A DNA stretch of 64,000 bases from Parvularcula mediterranea (GTDB lineage Bacteria; Pseudomonadota; Alphaproteobacteria; Caulobacterales; Parvularculaceae). The translations under genes and the position numbers were made by a program. Below are positions 32,129-48,316 of the stretch, piece after piece (within the stretch, counting starts at the first letter, position 1; the number at the start of each line of letters is the position of its first letter). The stretch covers positions 186,001 to 250,000 of the forward strand of contig NZ_JABFCX010000003.1 in assembly GCF_013085255.1 (NCBI RefSeq). The letters run 5' to 3'. Below the pieces are notes generated by a model, which was not told the origin of the DNA, did not search any database, and saw nothing but the letters and a program-made list of their open reading frames with translations.

Positions 32129-32130
32129 TC

Positions 32131-32571
32131 TTAGCCCAGTTCGTGGTCCGGCTTGCGGCTGGCGCGCCAGGGCTCGGAGACGTCGTTGACGGTGGCGTTC
32201 ACCGCTTCGACTTCCAGCCTGATCGTCCCGCCGCCTGCGAGGTTGAGGGTGATGGCACCGCCATCTTCGCCGCCCTCATACTCCATGGAGAGGATGTCGA
32301 TCACTGCGTCTTTTGCGTCCATGCGGACCCCGCGCGCCTTCACCGCGGTGACGTCGTCGAAATGGATGCCTGTCCGCACACGCATGCCCTTCGAGAAGAA
32401 GCCGCGCTTTTTCTCCCAGACGAAGCGGTTCGCCATGAGGACAAAGCGGCGCTCGTCCTGGAGGTAGGCGATGTCGGCGATCTTGACGATCGCGTCCTGC
32501 ATCAGGGCGGAGAGGGTTTTGAGGTCCTCTTCGTCGCCAGCGATGAGGGCAAGTGGTTGGTAGGCTGCCAT
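32131..32571 (-). CDS. DUF2948 family protein
   Basis: This 146-residue cytoplasmic protein has the DUF2948 pattern: LALIAGDEEDLKTLSALMQDAIV at the start, FVLMANRFVWE in the middle and IRLEVEAVNATVNDVSEPWRA near the end. Function is unknown. The murA - DUF2948 - hisD order is conserved in alphaproteobacteria. Gaps of 6 and 2 bp to its neighbours indicate cotranscription. Confidence 0.93.
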   Translation of the reverse strand: MAAYQPLALIAGDEEDLKTLSALMQDAIVKIADIAYLQDERRFVLMANRFVWEKKRGFFSKGMRVRTGIHFDDVTAVKARGVRMDAKDAVIDILSMEYEGGEDGGAITLNLAGGGTIRLEVEAVNATVNDVSEPWRASRKPDHELG

Positions 32572-32577
32572 GAGGCG

Positions 32578-33843
32578 TCAGTCCTCGTCCTTGATACGTT
32601 CGATAAGCGCGCCGACACTGCGCAGCTTGTCGTCCAGTTTCTCGAAGCCGCGGTCGAGATGGTAGACACGGCTGATCATGGTTTGCCCCTCGGCGCAAAG
32701 GGCCGCGATGATGAGGGACATGGAGGCGCGCAGGTCGGTCGCCATGACGGGCGCGCCCTTGAGGCGCTTGACGCCCCTGACGGTCGCCGTTCGTCCGTCC
32801 ACGTCGATATCTGCGCCGAGACGGCGAAGCTCTGGCACGTGCATGAAGCGGTTCTCGAAGATCGTCTCTTTAATCGTCGCCTCGCCGTCGCCCTTGGCCA
32901 TGAGGGCCATGTACTGGGCCTGGAGGTCGGTGGCGAAGCCGGGATAGGGCTCGGTCGTGACGCTCGTGGAAACCGTCGGTGTACCCCAGCGGGAGACGCG
33001 CAGGCCCCTCTCCTCCTCTTTGAGGGTCAGGCCGCTTTCTTCCATCACTGCGGCGGCTGTGCCGAGAAGGTCGCGGCGGCCACGTTCGAGCAGCAGCTCT
33101 CCGCCCACAGCGCCGACGGCCATGGCATAGCTGCCCATCTCGATGCGGTCAGCGACAACTTCGTGGGTGGTGCCTTCGAGGCGGTCGACGCCGGTGATGG
33201 TGATCGTGTCGGTGCCGTCGCCCTCGACCTTGGCGCCCATCGCGCGGAGGCAGTCACCGAGATCGACGATCTCAGGCTCGCGGGCTGCGTTCTTGAGGAC
33301 GGTCGTACCCTTGGCGAGGGTGGCCGCCATCATGACGTGCTCAGTCGCGCCGACGGAGACGAAGGGGAATTCGACCTCAGCGCCTTTAAGGCCGCCCTTG
33401 GCCTCGGCGAGGACGTAGCCTTCTTCGAGTTCGATATCAGCACCCATCGCGCGGAAGGCGTCGAGGTGCAGGTCCACGGGCCGGGCGCCGATGGCGCAGC
33501 CGCCGGGGAGCGAGACCTTGGCCTGCCCTTCCCTTGCGAGGATGGGGCCGAGGACGTTGAAGCTCGCGCGCATCTTGCGGACGATCTCATAGGGCGCGGT
33601 GGTCGAGGTGATGGTGCCGGCGTCGAGGGTGAGGCGCGCGCCTTCGCGCGTCCACTGGACCCCGTGGTTCTCGAGCAGCACAAGGAGCTGGCGGGCGTCG
33701 GCAAGGTCGGGGACCTCATCGAGGATCAGCTTGCCGTCAGTGAGGAGGCACGCAGCCATGACCTTCAGCGCCGAGTTCTTCGCGCCGGAGATGCGGAGTT
33801 CGCCGTAGAGCTCACGGCCGCCGATAATGGCGAGTTTATCCAA
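32578..33843 (-). CDS. murA: UDP-N-acetylglucosamine 1-carboxyvinyltransferase
   Basis: MurA transfers enolpyruvate from phosphoenolpyruvate to UDP-GlcNAc, the first committed step of peptidoglycan synthesis. The 421-residue protein has SGAKNSALK near residue 20 and the catalytic Cys116 in LPGGCAIGARPVDLH, so it should be sensitive to fosfomycin-type alkylation. The late DLRAS and RVYHLDRGFE blocks are present. Length is standard. It is near the head of the operon, 4 bp after a small charged-peptide gene. Confidence 0.97.
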   Translation of the reverse strand: MDKLAIIGGRELYGELRISGAKNSALKVMAACLLTDGKLILDEVPDLADARQLLVLLENHGVQWTREGARLTLDAGTITSTTAPYEIVRKMRASFNVLGPILAREGQAKVSLPGGCAIGARPVDLHLDAFRAMGADIELEEGYVLAEAKGGLKGAEVEFPFVSVGATEHVMMAATLAKGTTVLKNAAREPEIVDLGDCLRAMGAKVEGDGTDTITITGVDRLEGTTHEVVADRIEMGSYAMAVGAVGGELLLERGRRDLLGTAAAVMEESGLTLKEEERGLRVSRWGTPTVSTSVTTEPYPGFATDLQAQYMALMAKGDGEATIKETIFENRFMHVPELRRLGADIDVDGRTATVRGVKRLKGAPVMATDLRASMSLIIAALCAEGQTMISRVYHLDRGFEKLDDKLRSVGALIERIKDED

Positions 33844-33847
33844 GGGC

Positions 33848-33979
33848 TTAGTCCTTCTTGGCTTTGCGGCGGCGGAGATTGTCGCGCAGGGCCTTGGCGA
33901 GCTTTTCCTCGCGGGTCAGCTCCTTGTCCTCCTTCTCGGAGGGCTTGCTTTCCTGATCGCGCGTCGTCTCGCCAGCCAT
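33848..33979 (-). CDS. Small charged 43-residue protein upstream of murA
   Basis: This 43-residue highly charged peptide (MAGETTRDQESKPSEKEDKE, then ELTREEKLAKALRDNL and a basic RRRKAKKD tail) is predicted helical and cytoplasmic. Small proteins with the pattern REEKLAxALRxNLRRRKAQ recur before murA in alphaproteobacteria, so I regard it as real. Function is unknown. The ATG at 33979 is chosen because upstream residues in frame are unlike the family and run into the next gene. Confidence 0.65.
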   Translation of the reverse strand: MAGETTRDQESKPSEKEDKELTREEKLAKALRDNLRRRKAKKD

Positions 33980-34010
33980 CGCCGGGAGATGGCACGTGCC
34001 GAGCGGGTTC

Positions 34011-35666
34011 TCAAGGGGAAGAGCGCCAGACATTGGGGCCGTGGAAGTAGAGGGCTTCCTTCATCGGGCAGGCATACCTGCTCCCCCGGTCGACGTGGAA
34101 CGCCATCATGGGCTGCGGCTCGGCCAACTTGCGCGCATAGCGGGGAATGGGGAGCCACGCGGGCAAGGCGTGGATGACCCGGTGGGTGAGACGCCTCGGT
34201 TTGACCTCGTAATATTCGAGGAAGCGGAGGTTGGGCTCTGACAGCGTGGTCTGAGCCTCGTAGAGCTCGAGCCCTGTCTCGAGGGAAACGAGTACGACGT
34301 CGCACTGGCGTCCCTCCTCCTCAACGAGGCCGACCCAGCGGACCTGGTGCTCGATCTCCGCTTCGTCGTCCATTGTGTAGCCGAGGTGCCAGCGGGCGCG
34401 GATCATGGGGATGGGGTCGGTGAAGACGGGCCTGTCGGGCGATGAGAGCTCGGCGACGAAGCGGGCGTCTTCGTAGCGGCCGTGCTTGCGGAAGTCGGCG
34501 CCTGCCCAGTCGATGAGGACGACCGCGCCGACGACTGCCGCGAAGGCTCCGCCTGTAAGATGGGGCCTGAGCTTCGCGAGGAGGATCGCGGCGACGAGCA
34601 TCGCCGTGTACTGAAGGAATGGGTAGTAATAGGGGTCTTCGAGGCTGAAGACGAAAGCGTTGAGGATCACTGCGACGAATGACGTGAAAGCGAGGACTGC
34701 GACGGGCCAGCTCTTGAGTGCGGCGGGCAGCCTTTTCCTCAGGGCAAAGACTATGAGCGCTCCCGTGACGGTCACGAGGAACGGTGCGGAGGATGGCGCG
34801 CTGAGGGTTCCGACGAGGGGTTTGATGAGAAACTCAAGGGGCGGCTTGGCGATTTCCATGAGCCCGGTGCCTTCGCCCCCTCCGCCGTGGCCGAGGTCGG
34901 TGCGGTAGCGGTAGAGCGGGTCACCGGTGAGCAGGAAATAGCTGAGCGCTTCGGCGGCGAGGAGTGCCCAGTAGCAGAGGCAGAAAGCTGCGAAGCTCAG
35001 GAAGCTGAGCGTCTTTCGCCAGAAGACGGCGACCAGCGACAAAAGGCCGATGGCCATGGGCAGGTAGGCTGCGCTTTCCCGGCAGAGCCATGAGAGGAAG
35101 CAGGCGAGCGCGCTGAACGCCATGAGCCGGGCGGGCTTCTCGCCGCCGTCTGATGCCTTGGTGAAGAGCCAGACGCCAAGCGCTGCAAAGAAAATCTCTG
35201 GTCCGAAGATGCGGACTTCGGCTGCGAGGATGGCTGTGAGGGCCGAGGTGCCGGCGAAAAGGCCGAAGAGAAAGGCCGTGAGCTGACCGAAACGCGGCAG
35301 GGCTGCGCGGTAGCTGAGGAGCGCGAGAAGCGCCGTGTAGAGAAAGTTCGGCAGCGTGGCCTGCAGGTTGCCTAGGCCGAAGAGCTTGAAGCTCACGGCA
35401 ATGGGAAGGACGAAGGGGTGGCGGAGCTCCCAATGGTCCTGACCGAGATAGAGACCTTGGTCGAGCCATGCCCTCGCGCCGCGTATGTATTGCTCGGCAT
35501 CACGCCTGCCGATGCCGTCATAGAAGATCAGTAGGGTGAGGAAGACGGCGACGAGAATCCAGAACTCAGGTCTCGACAGGAGCGGCTGGAGACGCACTGG
35601 GACCGACGTGCGGAATGCGGCGCGGAGCAGCGCCCAGTCGCTTTGGTCCTTCGCCTTCTCCGTCAT
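34011..35666 (-). CDS. GT39/ArnT-like polytopic glycosyltransferase
   Basis: This is a 551-residue membrane protein with about 10-12 hydrophobic helices and a C-terminal soluble part. A GT39/GT-C-type first loop carries the acidic motif FYDGIGRRDAEQYI after the first helix, and the conserved ELRHPFVLPIAVSFKLFG resembles the 'H-P-P-L' region of ArnT/PMT proteins. Such enzymes use polyprenyl-phosphate sugars on the periplasmic face. The acceptor is unknown. It is head-to-tail with a GT4 gene. The ATG at 35666 has GGGGA just upstream; a GTG at 35690 is possible. Confidence 0.72.
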   Translation of the reverse strand: MTEKAKDQSDWALLRAAFRTSVPVRLQPLLSRPEFWILVAVFLTLLIFYDGIGRRDAEQYIRGARAWLDQGLYLGQDHWELRHPFVLPIAVSFKLFGLGNLQATLPNFLYTALLALLSYRAALPRFGQLTAFLFGLFAGTSALTAILAAEVRIFGPEIFFAALGVWLFTKASDGGEKPARLMAFSALACFLSWLCRESAAYLPMAIGLLSLVAVFWRKTLSFLSFAAFCLCYWALLAAEALSYFLLTGDPLYRYRTDLGHGGGGEGTGLMEIAKPPLEFLIKPLVGTLSAPSSAPFLVTVTGALIVFALRKRLPAALKSWPVAVLAFTSFVAVILNAFVFSLEDPYYYPFLQYTAMLVAAILLAKLRPHLTGGAFAAVVGAVVLIDWAGADFRKHGRYEDARFVAELSSPDRPVFTDPIPMIRARWHLGYTMDDEAEIEHQVRWVGLVEEEGRQCDVVLVSLETGLELYEAQTTLSEPNLRFLEYYEVKPRRLTHRVIHALPAWLPIPRYARKLAEPQPMMAFHVDRGSRYACPMKEALYFHGPNVWRSSP

Positions 35667-35709
35667 GTCCCCTGCCCGGCCACTCGTCACCGGGTCTACC
35701 TAACCCGCT

Positions 35710-36972
35710 TCACGCGAAGGTCGCACCCGGAGTCATCAGCTTGCGGTAGAAGCCCAGCATGGTCTCGCCGGTCTTCTCGAGGTCGTAGTCCTCCAGGACC
35801 TTGTCCGCGCCGCGTCGGCCCATCTCTGGCCAGCGGTCGCTTTCGCTGATCAGGCGGGTCAGGGCCTCGGCGATGGCTGGCGGGTCGTACTCTGGCACGA
35901 GGTAGCCGGAGACGCCGTCCTCCACGAGTTCGGGGATGCCGCCATGGGTCGTGCCGATGACCGGCGTGCCGCTGGCCATAGCCTCCTTGAGGGTGTTGAT
36001 CGGCGCGTCCTGGTTGCCGTCAGGGGCAGTGACCGAGGGGCCGAGGAAGATGTGGCTGGCCTTGAGCTCCCTGGCGACGGTGTCGAGGGACTGGGCCCCG
36101 AGGAAGGTGATGTGGTCGCCTATCCCAAGCTCTGCGATACGCTTCTCGAACGGGGCGCGGAGGATGCCGTCGCCGATGAGGGTGTAGTGGACGTCGTGGT
36201 GTTTGAGCACCTCAGGCAGAGCCTCGATGACGTCGCCGAAGCCCTTCTTCTCGACCAAACGGCCCACGGAAATGAGCTTCACCGGCCCCTCCTTCGGAAT
36301 GGTGCGCGGGCTGTAGGGGAAGTTCGACGTATCGAGGCCTGAGACGAGGATGCCGGTCATCTCCGCCGGGGCGCCGAGGCGGACAGCCTTGTTCCGGAAG
36401 AAGGCGCAGTTCGAGACGAAGCCGTCCGCCTCCTCGAAGACGTTGGCGTAGACGTCATCGCCCTGCGCCTGCACGTGGGAGGAGATGTCCGAGCCGCGGA
36501 AATGGACGAGGACCTTGCCCTTGAGGAGCCCTGTGCGCCTGAGGTGCAGGACGCGGCCTGCGAGCTGACCGAAATGGACGTGGATGACGTCGTACTCCGC
36601 GCCCTTCTTGAGGGCCGAAGCGTCGAAGACGGCGCGGGCGGCGGTCCTCAGGCCGTCGAGGCTCCTGGTGGTCAGGAGGCGCAGCGCGCCTGCCCCTTCG
36701 CGGCCTAGGGTCTTGGCGAACGCGCTGAGGACGGCGGGCAGCTTGAGGAGGTCCGAGTGCGGCACATCCGGTGAGCGCGTGCGCTCGATCATGCCGTAGC
36801 GGGCCACCGTTTCCTGCACGTCGCTGGTCTGGCGGCTTGTGGGATCGACGGCGTAGATGTCGAGGTCGTGCCCTGCGTCGAGGATTTTCTTTGCAGCGTT
36901 CACTACGAAGGTCTCGGAGGTCATCGGGAACGCACCGACGAAGAAAGCTATTCGCATACGGATTGCATTCAT
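35710..36972 (-). CDS. Glycosyltransferase family 4
   Basis: This 420-residue GT-B enzyme of the colanic-acid type (WcaL/EpsF-like) has an N-terminal RIAFFVGAFPMTSETFVVN acceptor domain and a VHVHFGQLAGRV step. The C-terminal donor domain has LISVGRLVEKKGFGDVI, the FLGAQSLD region and the nucleotide-sugar EAMASGTPVIGTTHGGIPELV motif with the EX7E-type glutamates. It probably extends a surface or exported polysaccharide. ATG at 36972 or 36957 could start it; the former has a modest AAGG upstream. It is divergent from the GT2 pair, with 57 bp between. Confidence 0.9.
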   Translation of the reverse strand: MNAIRMRIAFFVGAFPMTSETFVVNAAKKILDAGHDLDIYAVDPTSRQTSDVQETVARYGMIERTRSPDVPHSDLLKLPAVLSAFAKTLGREGAGALRLLTTRSLDGLRTAARAVFDASALKKGAEYDVIHVHFGQLAGRVLHLRRTGLLKGKVLVHFRGSDISSHVQAQGDDVYANVFEEADGFVSNCAFFRNKAVRLGAPAEMTGILVSGLDTSNFPYSPRTIPKEGPVKLISVGRLVEKKGFGDVIEALPEVLKHHDVHYTLIGDGILRAPFEKRIAELGIGDHITFLGAQSLDTVARELKASHIFLGPSVTAPDGNQDAPINTLKEAMASGTPVIGTTHGGIPELVEDGVSGYLVPEYDPPAIAEALTRLISESDRWPEMGRRGADKVLEDYDLEKTGETMLGFYRKLMTPGATFA

Positions 36973-37029
36973 TTCTTGCCTTTGCAGGGGCTTAGCACCA
37001 GACTCTGCAGGAGTTTCAGGCGATCCGCC

Positions 37030-37962
37030 ATGCCCCGCGTCTCTGTGATCATTCCGACCCACAACCGTCCCGGCGACGTCGTGAAGGCGGTTCAGTCCGT
37101 GTTCGCCCAGACGTTCCATGATTTAGAGGCCCTCGTTGTGGTCGATGGCGGCTCGCCGGAGACGCTGGCCGCGCTTCATGGGATCAGCGATGACCGGCTG
37201 ACGGTCATCGTGAATGAGGTAGCGCTCGGGAACGCCGAGGCGCGGAATGTCGGCATACGTGCGGCGGGCGGGGATCTGATCGCGCTTCTCGACGATGACG
37301 ATCTTTGGATGCCGGAGAAGCTGCGCCTGCAGGTCGAGGCGTTTGATGCGCGTGGGCATGACCGGGCGATTGTCTGCTGTCATTTCCGGCTGCTTGGTGA
37401 GACGCAGGATCTGGTCTTTCCTCGGCGCAGACCGCGGGCGGGTGAGCCGATCTCTGACTATATCTTCTGCCGCGACAGGAGCCTTGGGACCGAGGGTGCG
37501 ATCCAGACGTCCTGTATCCTCGCGCCGCGGTCGCTGTTCGAGGAGGTGCCCTTCGACAAGGACCTGCCCCGGCTTGTGGATCGTGACTGGCTCCTCCGCG
37601 CGGGCGAGGCCCGGGCGGAGGTGATCTTTCCGGATACGGACGAGGTTCTGTCGATCTACGCGGTTCATGATGCCCGCTCCCGCGTCAGCCATTCGTTGCG
37701 CTGGCGCTGGCAGCAGGAATGGGCGGAGGAGCGGCGCGCGCTGTTCACCGATCGGAGCTTCGCCGGGTTTCTCCTGACGGCGGCGAGCCAGACGGCTTCG
37801 CTCGAGGGCCAGAGGTCAGCGTTCTGGCCTCTCCTCAAGGCGGCATATGCCGGGGGACGGCCCAGCGTTGCCGAGGTGGCGATCCATGCGGGCAAGCACG
37901 CGGTGCCTGCCGGGGTGGAGCAGCGGGTCGCGAGCTGGCTTGAAAAGCGCGGCTCGAAATGA
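37030..37962 (+). CDS. Glycosyltransferase family 2
   Basis: This 310-residue GT-A enzyme has the nucleotide-sugar motif VSVIIPTHNRP at the N-terminus, a VVVDGGS segment, the metal-binding ALLDDDDLW (DxD) and the late RDWLLRAGEA helix. No membrane segment is visible. The start ATG 37030 gives the family's usual N-terminus. It overlaps the next GT2 by 4 bp, so the pair is cotranscribed. Sugar and acceptor are unknown. Confidence 0.92.
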   Translation: MPRVSVIIPTHNRPGDVVKAVQSVFAQTFHDLEALVVVDGGSPETLAALHGISDDRLTVIVNEVALGNAEARNVGIRAAGGDLIALLDDDDLWMPEKLRLQVEAFDARGHDRAIVCCHFRLLGETQDLVFPRRRPRAGEPISDYIFCRDRSLGTEGAIQTSCILAPRSLFEEVPFDKDLPRLVDRDWLLRAGEARAEVIFPDTDEVLSIYAVHDARSRVSHSLRWRWQQEWAEERRALFTDRSFAGFLLTAASQTASLEGQRSAFWPLLKAAYAGGRPSVAEVAIHAGKHAVPAGVEQRVASWLEKRGSK

Positions 37963-38813
37963 CGGGCCCTGAGTTTTCGATCATCATCCCGACCTATGGG
38001 CGTCCGGAGCAAATCGCGGCCTGCGTCGAGAGCCTGCGGGGGCTTGAGGGGCCGAGTTTCGAGGTGGTGGTGGTCGATGACGGCTCGCCGGAGCCTGTGA
38101 TGATCGACCCTGCGCTTTATGCTGATGATTTTGCGCTGCGGGTGATCAGGCAGGAGAATGCCGGGCCGGGCGCTGCGCGCAACCGCGGTGCGAACGAAGC
38201 GCACGGGCGGTATCTGGCGTTTACGGATGATGACTGCCGCCCCTGTCCTGACTGGCTGGAGCGCTATCTGGCGGTGCTGGACGGGCATCCTGAGCGGTTG
38301 GCCGGCGGGCTGGTGGTCAATGGGCTGGAGCGGAACGTCTTCGCTGCGGCGAGCCAGGACATCATCACCTTCCTCTACAAGAAGGACGGCGCGGATCTCG
38401 CGTTCTTCACGTCGAACAATTTCGCCTGCGCGCGGGAGGCTTTCCTTGACTGCGGCGGGTTTGATCCTGCGCTGCGGACGGCTTCCGAGGACAGGGACTT
38501 CTGCATCCGATGGCGGGCGCGAGGCGGTGAGACGGTTCAGGCCGAATGCGCGATCGTGGAGCATTTCCATGATTTGCGGATGGAGAGCTTCTGGCGTCAG
38601 CATACGAACTATGGCCGGGGTGCGCGGGACCTGTCGGACAAGCTCGAGCGGACGGGCGATGCCGAGCCCCTCCGGGTGCGGGGCTTCGGCTTCTACCGCG
38701 ACCTTGTCAGCTGGCCCTACGCCGCTGGCGGTTCGGGCAAGCTGGCGCGGTCGCTGCTGATCGTCTTGTCCCATGTCGCCATGGCCCGCGGGTTCTACCT
38801 CAGGCGACGCTGA
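37959..38813 (+). CDS. Glycosyltransferase family 2
   Basis: This 284-residue GT-A enzyme begins with FSIIIPTYGRPEQI and continues with VVVDDGSPE, the AGPGAARNRGANEA helix, the FTDDDCRP (DxD) motif and the acceptor-side TASEDRDFCIRWRARGG step. It is translationally coupled to the preceding GT2. Its last 19 bp overlap the convergent FAD-oxidoreductase/GT2 fusion gene. Confidence 0.92.
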   Translation: MTGPEFSIIIPTYGRPEQIAACVESLRGLEGPSFEVVVVDDGSPEPVMIDPALYADDFALRVIRQENAGPGAARNRGANEAHGRYLAFTDDDCRPCPDWLERYLAVLDGHPERLAGGLVVNGLERNVFAAASQDIITFLYKKDGADLAFFTSNNFACAREAFLDCGGFDPALRTASEDRDFCIRWRARGGETVQAECAIVEHFHDLRMESFWRQHTNYGRGARDLSDKLERTGDAEPLRVRGFGFYRDLVSWPYAAGGSGKLARSLLIVLSHVAMARGFYLRRR

Positions 38814-41320
38814 GGCTGGGGCTTGAGGACCCATGCGTGGCTCTTGGCGGCCAAGGGAGGCAGGCGGAGCATTTTTGCCGCTGCGACCAGCGAGAAGCAT
38901 GCTGACGAATAGAAGTGGTAGGCGGCGTGGAGCCCTACCCCTGCGATCGCTGTCCTGAGCCCGCCCTTGCGGTAGAGGAGCTTGAAGAAGTGCTCGTTCA
39001 TCACCGCATAGGTGATGGCGCCGATGGCGACGCCAAACCATGCCGCCGGGACGAAGAAGGCCACCGCGAGGCAGAGGAGCGCGAAGCCGACAGCCACGGC
39101 CTTGGCCTTCTCCTCGATCCGCGTGTTGAGCGTCTTCGCGGGCGCGCGGCCATGGACGATCAGGGTCGACCAGGGGATCGCACGGGAGTGGATATCGTCG
39201 CGCCAGAGCTGCTTCAGCGTCCAGTTCTTGAGGTGCTTGCCTTGCGCCTTGGGCACGAGGCGGATGCGATAGCCGCTCTCTGCGAGGCGGTGGCCGATCT
39301 CCACGTCTTCCATCGCAGGCTTCAGGATGTCGTTCGAGAAGCCGTTGAGGCGGGAGAAAGCCTGTGCACGGATAACACCGAGGCCGGTCCAGAAGCTGTT
39401 CGCTTCGCGCTTGCCGGTCTGGTGGAAATAATGGTGCCTGAGGTTCGCGTAGCGGGCCACAAGGTTCGGACAGGCCTGCTCGCTGCCGTAGGAGCCGAAG
39501 GCCGCTGCGACCTGCGGATCGTCACCGATCTCGCGGAGGAGATGCTTCGGTGCGGAAGGCTCGATCACCACGTCGGCGTCGATGAAGACGTAATTGTCCG
39601 TGGTCGCATGGGCTGCGCCCGTGTTCCTCGCGCGCGCAGGGCCGACGGAGGTTTTCTCCTCATGGGAGATCACTGTAGCGCCGTGCTTGCGGGCGATTTC
39701 GGCGGTGCGATCGGTTGAGGCATCATCGACGACGATGACTTCTGCCGGAGCGGGGTCTGCGGCGAGCGCGGCGGAGACGCAGCGGGCGATGGTGGCCTCG
39801 GCGTTCTTTGCGGGGATCACGGCCGAATAGGCGGCGAGCTCCGCTACCTTGTCGCCATCGATGTCGTCGTCGTCCTTGCGCGGAGGTTCGCCGTCCTTCT
39901 TGTCCGCCTTGACGAACTCCTCGTGGTAGGAGCGCTCGACATTGACGTTCCAGAGGTCGTGGCTGCCGCCCAGGATGTTGTCCGCTGCCAGCATCGCCGT
40001 CAGCATGGAGTGATCCTGATTGTTATAGCGATGCATGCCGTTGCGGCCGACGGTCTGGAAATTGTCGAAGCCTTCGAGCCAGGCCCGGACGATTTCGAGA
40101 TTCGGCGTGTAGTCGGCGTCGTAGACCGGATAGGCCTTGGGCTGACGAATGATGGCACCGTCGATGACGCTTGAAGCCGGGGCGAGGCCGATCTTTTCGA
40201 GTTCTTCGCCCGCCTGCTTGATGAGGTCCTCGTCAGACATCTCCCAGAGGCCGTCGCCTTCGTGGCAGAAGTATTCCATGCCGAGAGACGACGTCCCCTC
40301 GTCCGGCACCATGTCCGGGGACCAGGCGCGGAAGTTCTGGATACGGCCGACCTGTACCTCGGGGCTGTGGACGTAGATCCAGTTGTCCGGGAACGGATCG
40401 GCGTGGTCGAGGACCAGCGTGACGATGAGGAAGTCGCGGTACTTGAGCTTGTCGGCTGCCTCCATGACCGCTGGCGGCGGCGGAGGATCCATGACGCGGA
40501 GGAGCGTTCGGAGGTCCATCGAGTTGATGAACTGATCGCCCTCGACCCGGCGCTCTTCTCCGTCAGGGCCGCGCACGGTGACGGCATCGACGTGCTGGTC
40601 GGTGCGGTGCACTTTCTCGACCCGGGTGTTCATGACGACCTGGCCGCCATCTTCTTCGATGTCCTGGGTGCACTTTTCCCACATCTGGCCGGGGCCGAGG
40701 CGTGGGTACTCGAATTCCTCAATCAGGCTGACGGTATCGTTCGCGCCGGTCAGCGCGTTCCAGACGGCCTTTGAGACCGAGAGGTTCTTGATCCGCTGAG
40801 CAGCCCAGTCGGCGCGGATTTCCGAGCATGGGATGCCCCAGACCTTTTCCGTATACGTCTTGAAAAACGTGTCGAAGAGGCGCTTGCCGAAGCGGTTGGT
40901 CACCCACTGGTCGAACGTCTCTTCTTCCTTGAGCGGAGAAATACGGACCTTGGCGTAGCTGCACATGATGGCAGCAGCCTCGAACGGGCCGAGATTGGTC
41001 AGCGCGTTGAAGATCTTCAGCGGGTAGGAATAGAATTTGCCGTTGTAATAGATGCGCGACATGCGCTCGCGGGTGACGAACTCATCCTTGAGCGTCCGGC
41101 GCCAGAATTCGGTGACCTCGTCGACCTTCGTGAAGAAGCGGTGGCCGCCAATGTCGAAGCGGTAGCCATTATGGCTTTCGGTGCGGGAGATGCCGCCGAC
41201 GAGGCTGTGGGCCTCGAAGACTTCAGGCGTCCAGTCGGAGCTTTTCTCCTGGAGCGTCCTTGCGGCTGTGAGGCCAGCTGGCCCTCCCCCGATGACAACA
41301 GCTTTGTTCATACGCGTCAT
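38795..41320 (-). CDS. Fusion: FAD-dependent oxidoreductase (UGM/protoporphyrinogen-oxidase-like) plus membrane glycosyltransferase family 2
   Basis: This 841-residue protein has two complete domains. Residues about 7-485 form a flavoprotein. The dinucleotide motif is VVIGGGPAGLTAA, then GGISRTE and IGGHRFFTKVDEV, which resemble the glf/UDP-galactopyranose-mutase-like 'NAD(P)-binding' amine-oxidase group found in polysaccharide clusters. A charged Asp/Lys linker follows. Residues about 498-720 form a GT2 domain with YSAVIPAKNAEATIARCV, VIVVDDASTD, FIDADVV and the acceptor motif MEDVEIGHRLAESGY. The C-terminus has two or three membrane helices (about 755-815). Both domains are usually separate proteins. 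Start ATG 41320; 41309-41311 is a second ATG. Confidence 0.88.
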   Translation of the reverse strand: MTRMNKAVVIGGGPAGLTAARTLQEKSSDWTPEVFEAHSLVGGISRTESHNGYRFDIGGHRFFTKVDEVTEFWRRTLKDEFVTRERMSRIYYNGKFYSYPLKIFNALTNLGPFEAAAIMCSYAKVRISPLKEEETFDQWVTNRFGKRLFDTFFKTYTEKVWGIPCSEIRADWAAQRIKNLSVSKAVWNALTGANDTVSLIEEFEYPRLGPGQMWEKCTQDIEEDGGQVVMNTRVEKVHRTDQHVDAVTVRGPDGEERRVEGDQFINSMDLRTLLRVMDPPPPPAVMEAADKLKYRDFLIVTLVLDHADPFPDNWIYVHSPEVQVGRIQNFRAWSPDMVPDEGTSSLGMEYFCHEGDGLWEMSDEDLIKQAGEELEKIGLAPASSVIDGAIIRQPKAYPVYDADYTPNLEIVRAWLEGFDNFQTVGRNGMHRYNNQDHSMLTAMLAADNILGGSHDLWNVNVERSYHEEFVKADKKDGEPPRKDDDDIDGDKVAELAAYSAVIPAKNAEATIARCVSAALAADPAPAEVIVVDDASTDRTAEIARKHGATVISHEEKTSVGPARARNTGAAHATTDNYVFIDADVVIEPSAPKHLLREIGDDPQVAAAFGSYGSEQACPNLVARYANLRHHYFHQTGKREANSFWTGLGVIRAQAFSRLNGFSNDILKPAMEDVEIGHRLAESGYRIRLVPKAQGKHLKNWTLKQLWRDDIHSRAIPWSTLIVHGRAPAKTLNTRIEEKAKAVAVGFALLCLAVAFFVPAAWFGVAIGAITYAVMNEHFFKLLYRKGGLRTAIAGVGLHAAYHFYSSACFSLVAAAKMLRLPPLAAKSHAWVLKPQPQRRLR

Positions 41321-41616: not shown

Positions 41617-42495
41617 TCACGATCCGAGGCGGGGAATGAGCGCTGGAGTTCGCTTTCGATAGGCCCGGTACTCCGGATCATCGCCCCAACGCTTGCGAGC
41701 CGAGGCGTCCAGAAGCGGGATGCCGCTGACCTTGGTGAGGAGCAGGGTCACGAACAGCGGCGAGATGAGCGTGATCCACAGGCCGCCTGTCAGGACCGGG
41801 ATCGCCGCGACGGCCATGCCTGTCCAAAGGAGGATCTCTCCGAAGTAGTTGGGATGGCGCGAGCGGGACCAGAGGCCCTTGTCGATGAACTTGCCTGCAT
41901 TGGCCGGGTCCTTGCGGAAGGCCTTCTTCTGCTCGTCCGCGATGACTTCGATGAGGAAGCCGATCACCCACATGGCGCCGCCGACGACGAGGAAGATGTC
42001 GAGGGGCTGCTGCTTCGGGCTGGTGATGATCGCGAGGGCCGCTGCGGCGGTGAGGAGGCACCAGAGCGCCTGGATGCTCCACGCGGCGAGGAAGCGGAAG
42101 GGGTTGATCTTGATCTCCGCAAAGCGCCTGTCGTGGCCGTCGGCACTAATCCGCGTGAAGAGGAAGAGGCCAAGCCTCAGGCTCCACAGAATTACCGCGC
42201 CCGCCGCGAGCTTGGCGCGGAGGTCTAAGGATGGCGTCAGCGCTAGCGCTAGGCCCATCATGGAGAGATAGGTGATCGAGCCTGTGAGGTCGTAGAACTT
42301 CTCCGTACGCGCCATCGCTGACGGGATGAAGACCAGCCAATTGATGGCGAAGGAGAGGATCCCACAGAGGAGGAAGAGGCCTCCCACATAGAACGGCAGC
42401 GACACCTGAATGCTGCTCTGGCTGGCTGTCCACGCGACGCCGTAGCCAATCAGCGCGGTGACGAGGGCGACGATGATCCCGCGCACTGCCTTCAT
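41617..42495 (-). CDS. DUF1295 / steroid 5-alpha-reductase-like membrane protein
   Basis: This 292-residue polytopic protein has about seven hydrophobic segments. The C-terminal domain has the signature of the isoprenylcysteine methyltransferase/5-alpha-reductase/ICMT-like superfamily: GKFIDKGLWSRSRHPNYFGE followed by a membrane segment and RWGDDPEYRAYRKRTPALIP. Relatives reduce or methylate lipids and sterols using NADPH or SAM. It overlaps the thiolase gene by 4 bp, the third gene of a leftward operon with a carotenoid oxygenase and a thiolase. The ATG at 42495 gives the hydrophobic N-terminus typical of the family. Confidence 0.85.
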   Translation of the reverse strand: MKAVRGIIVALVTALIGYGVAWTASQSSIQVSLPFYVGGLFLLCGILSFAINWLVFIPSAMARTEKFYDLTGSITYLSMMGLALALTPSLDLRAKLAAGAVILWSLRLGLFLFTRISADGHDRRFAEIKINPFRFLAAWSIQALWCLLTAAAALAIITSPKQQPLDIFLVVGGAMWVIGFLIEVIADEQKKAFRKDPANAGKFIDKGLWSRSRHPNYFGEILLWTGMAVAAIPVLTGGLWITLISPLFVTLLLTKVSGIPLLDASARKRWGDDPEYRAYRKRTPALIPRLGS

Positions 42496-43727
42496 GCGTC
42501 GACTCCCACAACGAAGGAGCAGTTGGTGGTGCCCGAGCCGCCTACGTTGAAGGTTGCAATGTTCCGTGCACCCTCGACCTGCATGTCGCCAGCTTGGCCA
42601 GTCACCTGATGGGAGGCGTCGAGCAGCATCCTGACGCCCGTGGCGCCAACCGGATGGCCGATGCCCATGAGGCCGCCGGAGGGGTTCACGGGGATCGAGC
42701 CGCCGTGGGCGATGCGGCCATCCTCGACTGCCTTCCATGCCTCGCCGGGGGCGGTGATGCCGAAATGCTCGATCGCGATGTATTCGTTGATGGTGAAGCA
42801 GTCATGGGTCTCGATCGCGTCGATTTCTTCAGCGCCAGAGACCCCTGCCCGCCCGTAGGCATCGGTGATGGCCTTGCGGGTCCACGGCAGGAGATAGTCC
42901 TGACCCTGACTGGCTGTGAGCTTGGTATCCATTAGCATGGGCGCGGTGGTGTGGCCCCAGCCTTTGATCCGGGCGAAGCTTTCGAGCGGTTTGCCGAGCT
43001 TCTTCGCATGGGCACGGGCGCGTTCTTCGCTGGCGAGGAAGACGACGGCAGTACCGTCCGTGATCTGACTGCAATCGTGGCGCCGCATCCAGCCTTCGAC
43101 GACTGGGTTGAGCTCTTCATTATCTGAGAAGTGCTCGTCAGTGAGGGTCCAGCCGCGGGTCTGGGCGCGGCCGTTGCGCTTGGCGTTGGCGAAGTTGATC
43201 TGTGCGATCTCGGCCAGGTGGTCGTGGTTGAGGCCGTGGCGGCGGTCGACTTCCTCTGCGAGGCCTGAGAACATGGCTGGCCAGATGAAGGTCGCGTCCT
43301 CGGCCTCTTCTCCGACCCAGATGGCGGCACCGAGATGGTCGGCTGCGTCCTTGCCCGGGACGTTCCGCATCAGCTCGATCCCTGCGACGCAGGCGAGATC
43401 GTAGCGGCCGCTCTCGAGGTCCGCCATGGCTGCAAGGGCTGCGAGGGAGCCTGACGCGCAGGCCCCTTCGTGGCGGGAGGCAGGCACCCCGGCGAGGTCA
43501 GGATGGACGTGCCCCATGAACCCGCCGAGCATCCCCTGCCCCGTGAAAAGCTCGCCTACGAAGTTGCCGACATGGGCGACCTCGACGTCCTTGGGACCAA
43601 GCGAGGCGTTCTCGAGCCCACCGCGGACCCCTTCGGCGAAGAGGTCGAAGATCGACAGGTCCTCGCGTGTGTAATTGCGAGCGAAGTCGGACTGGTAGCC
43701 GCCGAGAATGTAGATGGCTTTGCTCAT
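42492..43727 (-). CDS. Acetyl-CoA acetyltransferase, SCP2/thiolase-like
   Basis: This 411-residue enzyme is of the thiolase superfamily, closer to SCP2/SCP-x-type thiolases than to FadA. The nucleophile is Cys90 in SRHEGACASGS. The partner His stands in EIDAIETHDCFTINEYIAIEHFG and in PSGGLMGIGHPVGATG. It cleaves beta-ketoacyl-CoA, often of branched or sterol side chains. Start ATG 43727. It is 8 bp after the carotenoid oxygenase gene. Confidence 0.88.
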   Translation of the reverse strand: MSKAIYILGGYQSDFARNYTREDLSIFDLFAEGVRGGLENASLGPKDVEVAHVGNFVGELFTGQGMLGGFMGHVHPDLAGVPASRHEGACASGSLAALAAMADLESGRYDLACVAGIELMRNVPGKDAADHLGAAIWVGEEAEDATFIWPAMFSGLAEEVDRRHGLNHDHLAEIAQINFANAKRNGRAQTRGWTLTDEHFSDNEELNPVVEGWMRRHDCSQITDGTAVVFLASEERARAHAKKLGKPLESFARIKGWGHTTAPMLMDTKLTASQGQDYLLPWTRKAITDAYGRAGVSGAEEIDAIETHDCFTINEYIAIEHFGITAPGEAWKAVEDGRIAHGGSIPVNPSGGLMGIGHPVGATGVRMLLDASHQVTGQAGDMQVEGARNIATFNVGGSGTTNCSFVVGVDA

Positions 43728-43735
43728 GTATGGCC

Positions 43736-45196
43736 TCACGCGCTCAATTCGTCAGCACCCGCCCAAACGGCATGGGTGCCGCTGCAGATACGATGGGGCA
43801 GGAAGATGCGGCAGAGAGGGCCGCGCTCGATGTCCCTGGCGTCGAGGACGACGCATTCGGAGCGATCGGTGTTCATGTCGGTGATGAAGCTGACGAGGTA
43901 GCCGTCATCCTCTTCCGTGGCGCCCTTGCGCGGGATGAAGGGGGCTTCGGAGCCAAAGCGCTTGTCACCGAAATGCAGGCGCTGGGTCGCGCCCGTTTCG
44001 AGGTCGTGCTTGATCAGCCCATTGAAGAGGAACCAGTCAGGCTCTGCCGTTGCGCTGTAGACATAGCGGTTCTTCCGCATGAGGTATTGCGGGTTGATCG
44101 TGCCGAACTCGACGTAATGATCCTTGTAGAGAGGTTCCTCACGGGTCTCTCCGGTCTTCAGGTTGAAGCGCCAGCGGTGAAGGTGCGGCTTGAAGGAATG
44201 GTAGTCGATGCCCGCTGCGAGCAGCCGGTACTTTGGGTCGAAGCGCTCATTCGGCTCGGGCCACGGCGCGTTCTGGAAGTAGCCGTCGAGGACGATCTCG
44301 TCGCCCTCCTCGTAACAGTTCGTATAGTGAAGAACGTAAGTGGGGTCGGCCTCGAACCAGCGGATGTCCGCTGGCTGCCCGTATCTTGGAAGGATAGCGA
44401 AGCGGGATTTAAGCTCTGGCTTGTAGACCGGGACGTAGTAGCCGTTCTCCAGCGCTTCGGGTGCCCAGAAGAGCGGGAAGTCATTCAGTATCGAGAAGTT
44501 CTCGGAAAACGCCATGTCATGGGGCAGCCGTCCGCCGGGCAGCTCCACGGGGATATAGTGCTTGAGCTGATTATCCGCGCCGACCACGCCATAGTGCATG
44601 TACGGCGCCTTGAGCGAGTAGTTGAAGAACAGGAGCTCGCCTGTCTTTGGGTCGACCTTGGGATGGGCTGAAATGCCGTCATCCGGCGTCCAGCCTTCGA
44701 TCCCAAGCGTGTCGAGGCTTTCCGGGTCGAGCCGGTAGCCCTCCCCGCATTGCCAGAACGTCGAGAGGATCTGGCCTGCGTGCACAAGGACGTCGGTGGA
44801 AGAGCTGTCCTTGACGTAGCCGTGCGCACCCCAGCCGGGACGTTCTGACTTCTGCGGATTGCCGGTGAAGCCTATCCAGAGGGACCGCCCGGCCTCCTGC
44901 TCTGCCTCAAAGCCCCGGGTGCGGATGAAACGGTTCTTGTAGGAAGCCTTGCCCCCTGAGAAGCGCATCATGTGTAGCATCCCGTCGCCATCGAAGGGAT
45001 GGTACTTCCCGATGGCGTCATGGACCGGGTTCTCGGTGTTGCGAACGTAGATCCCGTCGAGGTCAGCAGGGATCTCGCCGATGACCTCCATCTCCTCGGC
45101 GTCGTACTCGTCGAAGTTCGGCGTCCAGGCTCCGTTCAGGTAGGGGTGATCGGACTCGCTAAGGGTCGAAGGGACCCGGCGGACGAGGCGTTCCAT
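43736..45196 (-). CDS. Carotenoid oxygenase family protein
   Basis: This 486-residue non-haem iron dioxygenase is of the RPE65/carotenoid-cleavage/lignostilbene family. The four iron-binding histidines can be placed at His178 (GISAHPKVD), His226 (LPHDMAFSEN), His290 (VLHYTNCYE) and His475 (SGTHAVW). The usual second-shell acidic residues and a 7-bladed propeller length are present. It cleaves a central C=C of carotenoids, stilbenes or related isoprenoids. Start ATG 45196. First gene of an operon with a thiolase and a DUF1295 reductase. Confidence 0.9.
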   Translation of the reverse strand: MERLVRRVPSTLSESDHPYLNGAWTPNFDEYDAEEMEVIGEIPADLDGIYVRNTENPVHDAIGKYHPFDGDGMLHMMRFSGGKASYKNRFIRTRGFEAEQEAGRSLWIGFTGNPQKSERPGWGAHGYVKDSSSTDVLVHAGQILSTFWQCGEGYRLDPESLDTLGIEGWTPDDGISAHPKVDPKTGELLFFNYSLKAPYMHYGVVGADNQLKHYIPVELPGGRLPHDMAFSENFSILNDFPLFWAPEALENGYYVPVYKPELKSRFAILPRYGQPADIRWFEADPTYVLHYTNCYEEGDEIVLDGYFQNAPWPEPNERFDPKYRLLAAGIDYHSFKPHLHRWRFNLKTGETREEPLYKDHYVEFGTINPQYLMRKNRYVYSATAEPDWFLFNGLIKHDLETGATQRLHFGDKRFGSEAPFIPRKGATEEDDGYLVSFITDMNTDRSECVVLDARDIERGPLCRIFLPHRICSGTHAVWAGADELSA

Positions 45197-45727: not shown

Positions 45728-46918
45728 GTGGATCGAGAGGCGAAGGACGAGCGACCGTTCAGGCGGCATGTGTTCTTCGTGTCCGGCTTCGACCCGCGAG
45801 GCCCCTCGCCCTACTATGCCCGCTTTGAGAAAGGCGTGCCTCTGGCGGCTGAAAGACACGGCATGAGCCTCGAGCTTTCGCCGAGGGCCAGGGTGTCGAA
45901 CGTGGTCAACCGCTGGACCCTGAGCGCGGAGCGCGCTGACGGGCAGACGGAGACGACCTACGACTTTCTCCGGTGGGATGACGATATCCGGAGGATCTGG
46001 TCAGGGCGGAAGGCCCCTTCCCTCGCTGCCGCTGCCTTCTTCATCGTGGGGGATTGCTGGCGCCGGGGGTTCATTCAAGAGAATTTTGGCATCGCGAGAG
46101 CCTTGGGGCTCGCCGTGATGCTGCCGCCTGCTGCTTTGATCGTCGCGGCTCTCCTGTCGGCGGTTTTGGGGTTCGGCGCGTGGTGGCTCGCTGGTTTGCT
46201 TGCCGGTGGTCTTGGCGAGGCAGCGATCATTGTGCAGGCGGCGGCTTTGGCCGTGGTGCTCGGCGGGCTGTTCGTGATCTGGCGCTGGCTCGATCAGTCG
46301 ATCGGTATCTGGTGGCTGACCCGGAGCTTCGATTTCGTGCGGGAGACAGCCTACGGACGGTTTTCGCGTTCCGAGGAGCGGTCAAAGGCTTTCGTCGATC
46401 AGATCCTTGCCGCGGTGAAGGCGGATGAGGCGGATGAGATTGTTCTCTCCTGCCACAGCCTTGGTTGCCTCCTGCTGATGCGTACCGTGGCCGATGCCTT
46501 GCGGGCTGATCCTGCAATCGGGAGCGAAGGGCCTGAGGTGAAGGTCCTCTTCCTCGGCCAGTCGATTGCCGGGTACAACGCTTACGATCAGGACGAGGGT
46601 TTCAAGGATGATGTCAGGCTTGTTCTGTCTACGGACAGGCTTCAGGTCTTCGATGTGACGGCTGGCGCTGATCCGGGTACGACGTGCCGTATGGATATGC
46701 AGACGAGGCTCGAGCCGCCTCAGTCGCCGCCGAGGCATATCATCGAGCGTCCGGCGTTTCACAAGTCCCATACGCCCGAACGCTACAAGGCAATCAAGGC
46801 CGACCATCAGGCCTACCATTTCCAATATCTTGAGCCGACGGAATGCGGGACGGAGTTCGACTGGTTCGAACTCCTGACCCGCCCGCGGCCTATTGTGACG
46901 ACGAGACAAGAAGCATGA
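45728..46918 (+). CDS. Alpha/beta hydrolase-like membrane-associated protein of unknown function
   Basis: This is a 396-residue protein from GTG at 45728, preceded by a strong GGGAGAG (45716-45722). The first 30 residues reach RRHVFFVSGFDPRGPSPYYARFE, an oxyanion-type strand of alpha/beta hydrolases. Two or three hydrophobic helices follow at about residues 135-185. The motif EIVLSCHSLGCLLLMRTVADAL (nucleophile Ser in CHSLGC, about residue 245) fits a serine hydrolase elbow. The family is uncharacterised to my knowledge. It overlaps the first P450 gene by 4 bp, so the two are translationally coupled. Confidence 0.75.
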   Translation: MDREAKDERPFRRHVFFVSGFDPRGPSPYYARFEKGVPLAAERHGMSLELSPRARVSNVVNRWTLSAERADGQTETTYDFLRWDDDIRRIWSGRKAPSLAAAAFFIVGDCWRRGFIQENFGIARALGLAVMLPPAALIVAALLSAVLGFGAWWLAGLLAGGLGEAAIIVQAAALAVVLGGLFVIWRWLDQSIGIWWLTRSFDFVRETAYGRFSRSEERSKAFVDQILAAVKADEADEIVLSCHSLGCLLLMRTVADALRADPAIGSEGPEVKVLFLGQSIAGYNAYDQDEGFKDDVRLVLSTDRLQVFDVTAGADPGTTCRMDMQTRLEPPQSPPRHIIERPAFHKSHTPERYKAIKADHQAYHFQYLEPTECGTEFDWFELLTRPRPIVTTRQEA

Positions 46919-48315
46919 CCAACCTGCGCCCACCGATGCCCGAGCCGAAGGACAAGGCGAATGCCCTGCAAAAACTCTGGGCGTCGTTCGACTCGTCGAT
47001 CTCCGGTTTTGCGGCGGGAGCTTACCGTACACTGACGATCACGAAGATCAGGACGCCGAACCTACCGATCGAGCAGGTCAAGCGAGCTTTCCTTGTGCGC
47101 GATCCAGAATGGATCCGGGAGATCCTGGTCAAGCGGTATGCGGACTTTCCAAAATCGAAGCAGACCAGGAAGATGCTGGGCTGGCTGGCCGGGGGGAGCA
47201 TGTTCACCTCGAACGGTGACGACTGGCTCTACCAGAGAAGGATCATCGACCAGGCGTTCACGAATGCCGGGGTGAAGGCCGTCCTGCCTTTGATGCTCGA
47301 CGCTGTGGATGCCAGCCTGAACCGGATCACCGGACGCGGAAGCGCAACCTTCGATGTGACTGAGGAGACCAACCTCTTCGCAGGGGACATCATCTACAGG
47401 ACGCTCTTCTCTGAAGAGATTGCGCGCGACGATGCCAACCGGATGTTCGGTGCCTTCGAAGCTTATCAGCGTGCGGCCTATCAATTCGGCATTTCGTGGA
47501 GCCTTGGCGTTCCTGAGTTTCTGAACCCGCAAGCGGGGATGCTGAAGCGGAACGGTAAGATCATCCGTGAAGAGCTTATCAAGCCCATCGACAGGCGCCT
47601 CTCTGCCATCGAGGCGGGCGAAGAGACGCCTCAGAATGATATCCTCGGTTCGCTGATTAGCTGCTCCGATCCTGAAACTGGGAAACGCTTCGACCGTGGT
47701 GAGCTCCACGATCATATCAGCGCCTTTTTCCTTGCGGGGCATGAGACATCGGCGGTGTCGCTCGGTTGGTCGCTGTACCTCCTCGCGAAGGATCAGGAGA
47801 TGCAGGACGCGGTGCGGCGGGAGGTTCTCGAAGCCTTGCCCGAGGGGCGGCCCGCCTTCTCCGATGTTCGCAAGTTCCAGCTCGCGCGCAATACCTTCCG
47901 CGAGGCGCTGCGCCTCTATCCACCCGTCGCGTACATCAATCGTGATGCTACGAAGGAGGAGAAGATGCGCAAGCACGAGCTCTGCCCGGGCGACCTTGCG
48001 TCAATCCCGGTCTGGCTCATGCACCGGAACGAGGAGATCTGGGAACAGCCCCATGAATTCTGTCCGCACCGGTTTGCCGATCACGATCAGAAGGAGGCAA
48101 TCTCTTCCGCCTACCTCCCCTTTGGCCTCGGCGCACGGGTTTGCGTCGGCGCTTCCTTCGCGACCCAGGAGGCTGTGCTGTTCCTTGCCATGTGCCTCAG
48201 ACAGTTCCGGGTGGAGCCAGTTGAGGGGCACACTCCTGATCCGATGGCACGCCTGACCATCCGCTCACGGAACGGCATCGTTCTGAAGTTCGTGCCGCTG
48301 GACGATAAGGCCTGA
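46915..48315 (+). CDS. Cytochrome P450 (first of tandem pair)
   Basis: This 466-residue soluble bacterial P450 has the I-helix oxygen-binding motif AGHETS (about residue 274), the K-helix EALR motif (about 329) and the haem loop FGLGARVCVG with Cys near residue 410. The N-terminus TNLRPPMPEPKDKANALQKLW lacks a membrane anchor. It carries out monooxygenation with an external ferredoxin system; no redox partner gene is in the window. It resembles the following P450 closely in motif spacing, indicating tandem duplication. It is coupled to the upstream hydrolase-like gene by a 4-bp overlap. Confidence 0.94.
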   Translation: MTNLRPPMPEPKDKANALQKLWASFDSSISGFAAGAYRTLTITKIRTPNLPIEQVKRAFLVRDPEWIREILVKRYADFPKSKQTRKMLGWLAGGSMFTSNGDDWLYQRRIIDQAFTNAGVKAVLPLMLDAVDASLNRITGRGSATFDVTEETNLFAGDIIYRTLFSEEIARDDANRMFGAFEAYQRAAYQFGISWSLGVPEFLNPQAGMLKRNGKIIREELIKPIDRRLSAIEAGEETPQNDILGSLISCSDPETGKRFDRGELHDHISAFFLAGHETSAVSLGWSLYLLAKDQEMQDAVRREVLEALPEGRPAFSDVRKFQLARNTFREALRLYPPVAYINRDATKEEKMRKHELCPGDLASIPVWLMHRNEEIWEQPHEFCPHRFADHDQKEAISSAYLPFGLGARVCVGASFATQEAVLFLAMCLRQFRVEPVEGHTPDPMARLTIRSRNGIVLKFVPLDDKA

Positions 48316-48316
48316 C

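Follow-up and report, generated by a model that had tools for sequence, protein, structure and literature searches.

The 64,000-nucleotide window analysed here (Parvularcula mediterranea contig NZ_JABFCX010000003.1, positions 186,001 to 250,000; C2:186001-250000 of the 3.21 Mb, three-contig source genome, G000) encodes a protein in which a flavoprotein resembling UDP-galactopyranose mutase (UGM) is joined through a charged linker to a family GT2 glycosyltransferase. The fusion is confirmed; it is rare and lineage-specific, and both enzymes that it combines are of known kinds. The protein probably serves a surface-glycan locus as a bifunctional enzyme, a nucleoside diphosphate (NDP)-pyranose/furanose mutase coupled to a furanosyltransferase. 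The evidence that the two halves act in one pathway is good, and the evidence for a mutase–transferase pair is moderate. The gene and its parts are positioned as follows.

38795..41320, minus strand: fusion gene, 841 amino acids, ATG start, stop-free; UGM-like flavoprotein, charged linker and GT2
39926..41320, minus strand: domain 1, UGM-like FAD domain, residues 1-465 (NF005548, PF01593)
39845..39925, minus strand: linker, residues 466-492, D/K/E-rich, predicted local distance difference test (pLDDT) below 50
38795..39844, minus strand: domain 2, GT2, residues 493-841, with D533/S535, D581xD583 and E671-D672, then helices

The fusion reported in the initial annotation is genuine. Both domains lie in a single stop-free frame, and a second species of the genus (G054) carries a colinear 856-residue fusion with 71% identity over residues 6-834, the flavoprotein being 77% and the GT2 domain 61% identical. 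Substitution rates for this pair (NG86) were dN 0.167 and dS 0.841 in the flavoprotein and dN 0.330 and dS 0.979 in the GT2 domain. The colinear frame and these rates indicate that the fusion is not a sequencing accident, and purifying selection acts on both halves in the two species. A missed stop or frame error between the domains is ruled out by the intact frame, its counterpart in G054 and the dN/dS of the pair. The linker is poorly conserved between the two proteins.

Profile searches delimited the domains. NF005548 (PRK07208.1-4) of NCBIfam matched residues 4-475 with 688.3 bits (cut-off 389), the flavodomain also matched PF01593 and an N-terminal Rossmann family, and PF00535 of Pfam matched residues 499-625 (96.6 bits, 2e-27; cut-off 23.3). 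The AlphaFold2 model, built with 32 aligned proteins, has a mean pLDDT of 88.4 and a predicted template-modelling score (pTM) of 0.60, and it depicts two well-folded domains joined by a flexible tether.

The predicted flavodomain closely resembles UGM. Foldseek ranks 1-34 were all UGM, as were VIA rows 1-21 (best 4dsh of T. cruzi; Z 36.9, rmsd 2.7, 442 residues), and the 19 best PDB sequences against the family profile, down to E 1.9e-13, were UGMs. From Z 31.4 down, the VIA rows mix UGM and protoporphyrinogen oxidase. Fold alone thus does not separate these two enzymes, and the residues decide. We aligned 94 sequences, comprising the window protein, 14 rows of alignment A1 and 79 of the 80 loci kept from a contig search described below (the remaining locus had a split frame and was dropped). 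Residues corresponding to H63, R91, Y104, R182, W315, Y317, R327, Y419, R447, Y453 and N457 of A. fumigatus UGM are identical in 94/94 rows, and those corresponding to S93, F66 and W167 are kept in 93/94. H60, R326 and R426 of the window protein are likewise present in every row, although the alignment is biased around H60, since 79 rows derive from loci retrieved with the pattern DIGGHRFF or a Rossmann pattern. We take H60 to be the catalytic histidine and R326 and R426 to be the two diphosphate-binding arginines, and the conserved flavodomain residues are presumably those that bind the NDP diphosphate in UGM.

Two other identities were considered for the flavodomain and rejected. Protoporphyrinogen oxidase, the alternative offered in the initial annotation, scored below cut-off in both of its profiles (TIGR00562, 34.5 bits, cut-off 97.85; NF008841, 49.4 bits, cut-off 517), and the kept active-site residues favour the UGM-like reading over it. 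A carotenoid or hopanoid oxidoreductase is excluded by profile cut-offs and by the 8 of the 11 UGM residues missing from each of two same-genome enzymes. The phytoene desaturase CrtI (L001) keeps Y104, R182 and Y317, HpnE (L002) keeps H63, R91 and W315, and both lack the R327 and R447 equivalents; these proteins are very distant from the flavoprotein family and their alignment is rough.

The second half looks like an inner-membrane GT2 that is not of the DPM/GtrB type, as judged from family matches and the model. Modelled alone, it reached a pLDDT of 91.3 and a pTM of 0.90. D581, D583, E671 and D672 are invariant in the 18 GT2 rows of alignment A2; the same residues, numbered D90, D92, E180 and D181, are invariant in the 23 rows of A4, and an R-A-x-P-W motif ahead of the helices is invariant in 23 rows. 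AlphaFold2 places helices at 735-754, 760-774 and 776-817 in the C-terminal part, and 741-759 is the sole C-terminal segment to pass a hydropathy scan, leaving the number of membrane passes unsure. The closest folds are hyaluronan synthase (Z 24.0), the archaeal mannosyltransferase PcManGT and cellulose synthase, interspersed with soluble GT2 enzymes (GalNAc-T2, for example).

The two halves keep company beyond the fused proteins. Among 62 genomes of the family, the flavoprotein occurs in 18 (E 1e-90 or better) and this GT2 type in 16 (E 1e-50 or better), and all 16 also carry the flavoprotein (Fisher p 6e-13, kinship ignored; at most 15 candidates were scored per genome). The best GT2 match below that group was at 1e-13, and two flavoprotein genomes, G006 and G023, had no GT2 at E 1e-50 or better. 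The GT2 gene lies directly downstream of the flavoprotein gene on the same strand in ten genomes, with spacing from overlapping frames to 284 bp. These are G026, G028, G031, G032 and G040 within the family (the G040 flavoprotein is more distant, 37% identity) and G113, G129, G169, G241 and G277 from another family. It is nearby in other arrangements in G002, G003, G008, G009, G052 and G057, about 24 kb away in G055, and on another contig in G005 and G051. Split homologues in the family are therefore mostly linked, rather than always separate and unlinked, the pattern that would have counted against the initial annotation. Together with the repeated fusion of the flavoprotein to glycan enzymes, this co-occurrence and adjacency support functional coupling of the halves.

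Fusions of this flavoprotein were sought in wider surveys. At the level of the order, the flavoprotein was present in 42/398 genomes (E 1e-60 or better), with the GT2 fusion in two (G000 and G054) and a fusion to UDP-xylose synthase (UXS) in six intact frames as well as in G026 (L043), where internal stops interrupt the frame. The class survey found the flavoprotein in 23/385 genomes (E 1e-70) and one further GT2 fusion, in G544, and the phylum survey found it in 26/398 (E 1e-90), the window protein being the only match to both domains. These surveys partly share genomes, and fusions were sought by frame length, so short ones may escape, and small or other fusions may be present in the frames of G928, G719 and G921 (657-696 aa). 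The contig search returned at least 114 relatives, of which 80 loci were kept, from Cyanobacteria, Actinomycetota, Acidobacteriota, Planctomycetota, Bacteroidota, Bacillota and others, and a plasmid search returned six records, none fused. The intact UXS fusions are located at:

L038:14891-17458, L039:7236-9812, L040:13686-16298, L041:9916-12423, L042:8908-11412, L044:3824-6370: UXS domain N-terminal to the flavoprotein

In the alphaproteobacterial G544 (L182:2-2290), the flavoprotein, clipped by the contig edge, is fused to a DPM/ArnC-like GT2 of a different subfamily from the window GT2; this is an independent flavoprotein–GT2 fusion. The Puia dinghuensis frame (L147:5977-9180) continues in frame for about 530 residues with nine hydrophobic segments and no Pfam match, perhaps a GT-C enzyme. 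These cases make at least four kinds of fusion for the flavoprotein, three of them with recognised sugar enzymes. Two further candidates were discarded. The 857-aa frame of G626 looked fused by length, but its flavoprotein occupies the C-terminal end, and the tail of L161, about 450 aa, is low-complexity and not an enzyme. In the 686- and 724-aa frames of G242 and G093, a BLAST search with three query domains matched only the flavoprotein, which in G093 is preceded by 182 aa. A second, distant flavoprotein paralogue (27-28% identity) was observed in two of the same loci (L039:13433-14896 and L038:821-2335); in L039 it is flanked by LPG_synthase_TM and polysaccharide deacetylase genes, and a DPM-like GT2 lies further along.

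Synteny and phylogeny bear on how the window fusion arose. A tree built from 48 flavodomains pairs the two fused proteins as sisters (100/98), with the unfused G052 protein branching next (100/99). The GT2 tree pairs the G000 domain weakly with that of G052 (85/71) and places G054 outside, so that the trees would fit either a single gain of the fusion or its later loss in G052. The window and G054 share a block of GT4(-), GT2(+), GT2(+) and fusion(-). In G052 the same block carries, where the fusion would be, an unfused GT2 with 62% identity to the window domain; in both G054 and G052 the block is followed by sulfotransferase and FkbM-type genes. The G052 flavoprotein gene lies elsewhere, beside another GT2 of this type and a PMT_2 gene.

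In the proposed mechanism, reduced FAD of the N-terminal domain would attack C1 of an NDP-sugar, releasing the NDP; the ring would contract and the NDP-furanose would be re-formed. The membrane-anchored GT2 would then pass the furanosyl residue of the nucleotide-linked donor on to an acceptor at the inner membrane face, either a lipid-linked or a nascent glycan, with the flexible charged linker keeping the mutase near its consumer and so pulling an equilibrium that favours the pyranose. For UGM this equilibrium is given as 11:1 in favour of the pyranose in PMC7278926, and with such a ratio keeping maker and user together makes sense. Also in favour of this reading, no canonical glf exceeded its cut-off in any of the 62 family genomes, G000 included (G058 reaches 133.6 bits). 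We infer the mutase activity, the identity of the sugar, the furanosyl specificity of the GT2, the acceptor and the kinetic benefit of the tether.

Several observations weigh against this assignment. Protoporphyrinogen oxidase is near in fold to the flavodomain (2ivd, VIA Z 31.4). Within the same 94 rows, the Q107 equivalent varies (K/S/R/T) and N207 aligns to I/E, neither being kept, while the Y334 equivalent is W in 94/94 and the N163 equivalent is T in 91/94. All four are among eight UGM residues with mutants named in PDB titles, and we take Q107, N207 and Y334 to contact the uridine and sugar in A. fumigatus UGM. These changes suggest that the nucleotide or the sugar may differ from that of UGM; in addition, the V64 equivalent is Arg in all 94 rows and Q458 is kept in 63. 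The canonical UGM profile TIGR00031 (cut-off 303.75 bits) was outside the best 25 of 38 families matched, the weakest of which had E 4.6e-6. GlfT2 first appears at Foldseek rank 40 for the GT2 domain, and with hyaluronan and cellulose synthases and others as its fold neighbours, furanose specificity is without fold support. The linker is predicted to be disordered and the pTM is 0.60, so no interdomain contact or defined interface is predicted, and the direct handover of substrate that the initial annotation thought possible is a conjecture. Most flavoprotein homologues are unfused, and this GT2 type is within reach in 7/80 loci of other bacteria, a distribution suggesting that the pairing is old yet far from universal.

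The gene content of G000 gives some indication of the sugar. The genome carries a GalE (380 bits, cut-off 262), a dTDP-glucose 4,6-dehydratase (460 bits, cut-off 365) and a nucleotide-sugar dehydrogenase with UDP-glucose dehydrogenase as its nearest name (209 bits over the 188 aa scanned, cut-off 190). UXS was not found in G000 or G054, both 99% complete, where the best match had 31% identity in each. Because GalE is present and UXS was not found, UDP-galactose is the default substrate of the window protein, assigned with low confidence, and UDP-xylose is weakened as a candidate. It remains central to an alternative that we consider quite improbable, in which UDP-xylose or UDP-arabinose is converted to UDP-xylofuranose (UDP-Xylf) or UDP-arabinofuranose (UDP-Araf) and the GT2 is a pentofuranosyltransferase. 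Seven genomes of the family fuse UXS to the flavoprotein, and UXS (>50% identity) tracks the close clade, being found in 11/14 of its genomes against 7/48 others (p 1.5e-5, kinship ignored; two of the 18, G055 and G024, carry an in-frame stop in the match). The UXS assignment of the fused L039 domain is firm by sequence comparison, with human UDP-glucuronate decarboxylase 1 at E 3e-106 and the next protein at 7e-36 among PDB sequences; no NCBIfam profile was over its cut-off for this domain (best dTDP-glucose 4,6-dehydratase, 133 bits, cut-off 365). The dehydrogenase of G000 also fits a pentose. In Campylobacter jejuni, according to PMC10615251, UDP-L-Araf is made by UXS, an epimerase and a UGM-like mutase that cleaves the C1-O bond of UDP-xylose as well, although the authors doubt that UDP-xylofuranose forms, given the C4 stereochemistry. 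Both genomes with the flavoprotein–GT2 fusion are, however, among the three close-clade genomes without UXS (G000, G054 and G003, the last 72% complete).

The likeliest of the alternatives, though unlikely in itself, has the flavoprotein act on a polyprenyl-phosphate-linked sugar, in a role like that of the structurally unrelated DprE1 (oxidation/epimerisation or ring change); the GT2 would make or use the lipid-linked sugar and a GT-C enzyme would transfer it outside the cytoplasm. Neighbouring genes are in keeping with this. GtrA/DPMS_TM (7), GT2 PF00535 (6) and PMT_2 (5) were the commonest families among 83 neighbours of flavoprotein genes from many phyla, these 83 being the scanned portion of 150 roughly picked genes (the 67 left out comprise 54 of loci L153-L180 and 13 hand-chosen), and PMT_2-type homologues adjoin the flavoprotein gene in seven relatives (G002, G003, G005, G008, G009, G052 and G057). 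The GT2 fused in G544 is DPM/ArnC-like (ArnC model 78 bits, cut-off 529), and the Puia dinghuensis domain can be read as GT-C-like. Three-component extracytoplasmic pentofuranose systems do exist, although those described in PMC11127046 use a short-chain dehydrogenase/reductase (SDR), not a flavoprotein, for Xylf. The same neighbours are nonetheless compatible with an NDP-furanose loaded later onto a lipid, the best family matches and fold rows of the window GT2 place it outside the DPM/GtrB type, and the conserved flavodomain residues are those of NDP-diphosphate binding in UGM. Least probable is a neutral fusion of neighbouring genes, with independent halves and a functionally meaningless link. 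Such an origin would fit the split neighbours with overlapping or closely spaced frames, the disordered and poorly conserved linker, and the unfused syntenic GT2 of G052. Against it, two species that differ in 29% of residues have both retained the fusion, both halves are under purifying selection, and the flavoprotein also occurs joined to glycan enzymes in at least two or three other ways; a kinetic benefit is not thereby proven.

The genes around the fusion are consistent with the bifunctional mutase–transferase acting in glycan synthesis. The GT39-, GT4- and GT2-type neighbours named in the initial annotation are all present, and the glycan-locus setting is supported:

37959..38813, plus strand: GT2 glycosyltransferase, tail-to-tail with the fusion gene (19-bp overlap of the 3' ends)
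36868..37962, plus strand: GT2 glycosyltransferase, true start probably near 37027
35710..37119, minus strand: GT4 glycosyltransferase, WcaL-like but under the cut-off of that family; the listed start is probably too far upstream
34011..35690, minus strand: GT-C/PMT_2 (GT39-like) multi-pass glycosyltransferase

The start near 37027 is suggested because homology begins only at aa 53-59. The window PMT_2 gene falls below the Pfam cut-off (20.5 vs 26.1 bits), and its L039 homologue lies above it (40.9 bits). Beside the glycan locus, 41617-45196 (minus strand) encodes a DUF1295/steroid-dehydrogenase-like protein, a thiolase and an RPE65-type carotenoid/lignostilbene oxygenase, and two cytochromes P450 follow at 46843-49711 (plus strand). 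On the other side, a 645-aa open reading frame at 32113-34050 (plus strand) matches nothing in Pfam or NCBIfam and is likely the shadow of a minus-strand gene at 32578-33843, which we take to be MurA-like.

The main interest of the fusion is the light it sheds on a widespread, uncharacterised flavoprotein family that spans many phyla and whose NCBIfam models are named only 'hypothetical protein'. Searches of open-licence PMC papers turned up no description of such a mutase–glycosyltransferase fusion and nothing on PRK07208, and the two-hybrid study PMC4213368 mentions neither Glf nor a mutase. The fusions serve as Rosetta stones, since the named partners (UXS, GT2, a membrane domain) turn the family into a precise, testable mutase prediction. 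We tentatively propose, as a doubtful generalisation, that PRK07208-type flavoproteins may be NDP-pyranose mutases that form a bacteria-wide class separate from Glf. Which sugar each lineage uses would be set by the partner, fused or adjacent: UXS would lead to a UDP-pentofuranose, possibly UDP-xylofuranose, and GT2 or membrane transferases would give one-chain 'make and use' furanosyltransferases, the window protein included. If true, rare furanose sugars of bacterial surface glycans would become predictable in genomes without glf, and a natural one-chain mutase–transferase would be a ready-made tool for glycoengineering, which is hampered by the unfavourable balance between pyranose and furanose.

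Comparison with known enzymes places each half of the protein. Eukaryotic-type UGMs (A. fumigatus 3ukh/5hhf, T. cruzi 4dsg/4dsh) share the fold over the whole flavodomain, with the catalytic His, two Arg and Tyr kept. They differ in that identity is about 20-22%, the solved chains are single-domain, and the Q107, N207, Y334 and N163 equivalents are changed in the window family. NF005548 itself is matched here at near full length, and the homologues found in this analysis mostly carry no fused transferase. In hyaluronan synthase and BcsA, too, helices come after the GT-A domain (best VIA row 8snc, Z 24.0, rmsd 3.3, 311 residues, 13% identity), whereas the window GT2 has about three C-terminal helices, one clearly hydrophobic, and a translocation channel is not evident.

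At the pathway level, UDP-xylofuranose made by a UXS-flavoprotein would differ from the polyprenyl-phosphoribose route of PMC11127046. The C. jejuni HS:15 UDP-L-arabinopyranose mutase pathway (HS:15.16-19) combines a UXS-type decarboxylase with a UGM-like mutase (PMC10615251), much as relatives of the window protein fuse UXS to the flavoprotein; its genes are separate, and a recognisable UXS was not found in the genome of the window. A parallel in gene arrangement is pamABC of Kingella kingae (PMC12269835), a surface-glycan locus in which neighbouring genes code for a predicted UGM (PamB) and a GT2 galactofuranose transferase (PamC), matching the two halves of the window protein. PamB and PamC are two separate proteins, and the activity of PamC has been demonstrated experimentally, whereas the window GT2 is a predicted transferase, anchored in the membrane and carried on the same chain as its putative mutase.

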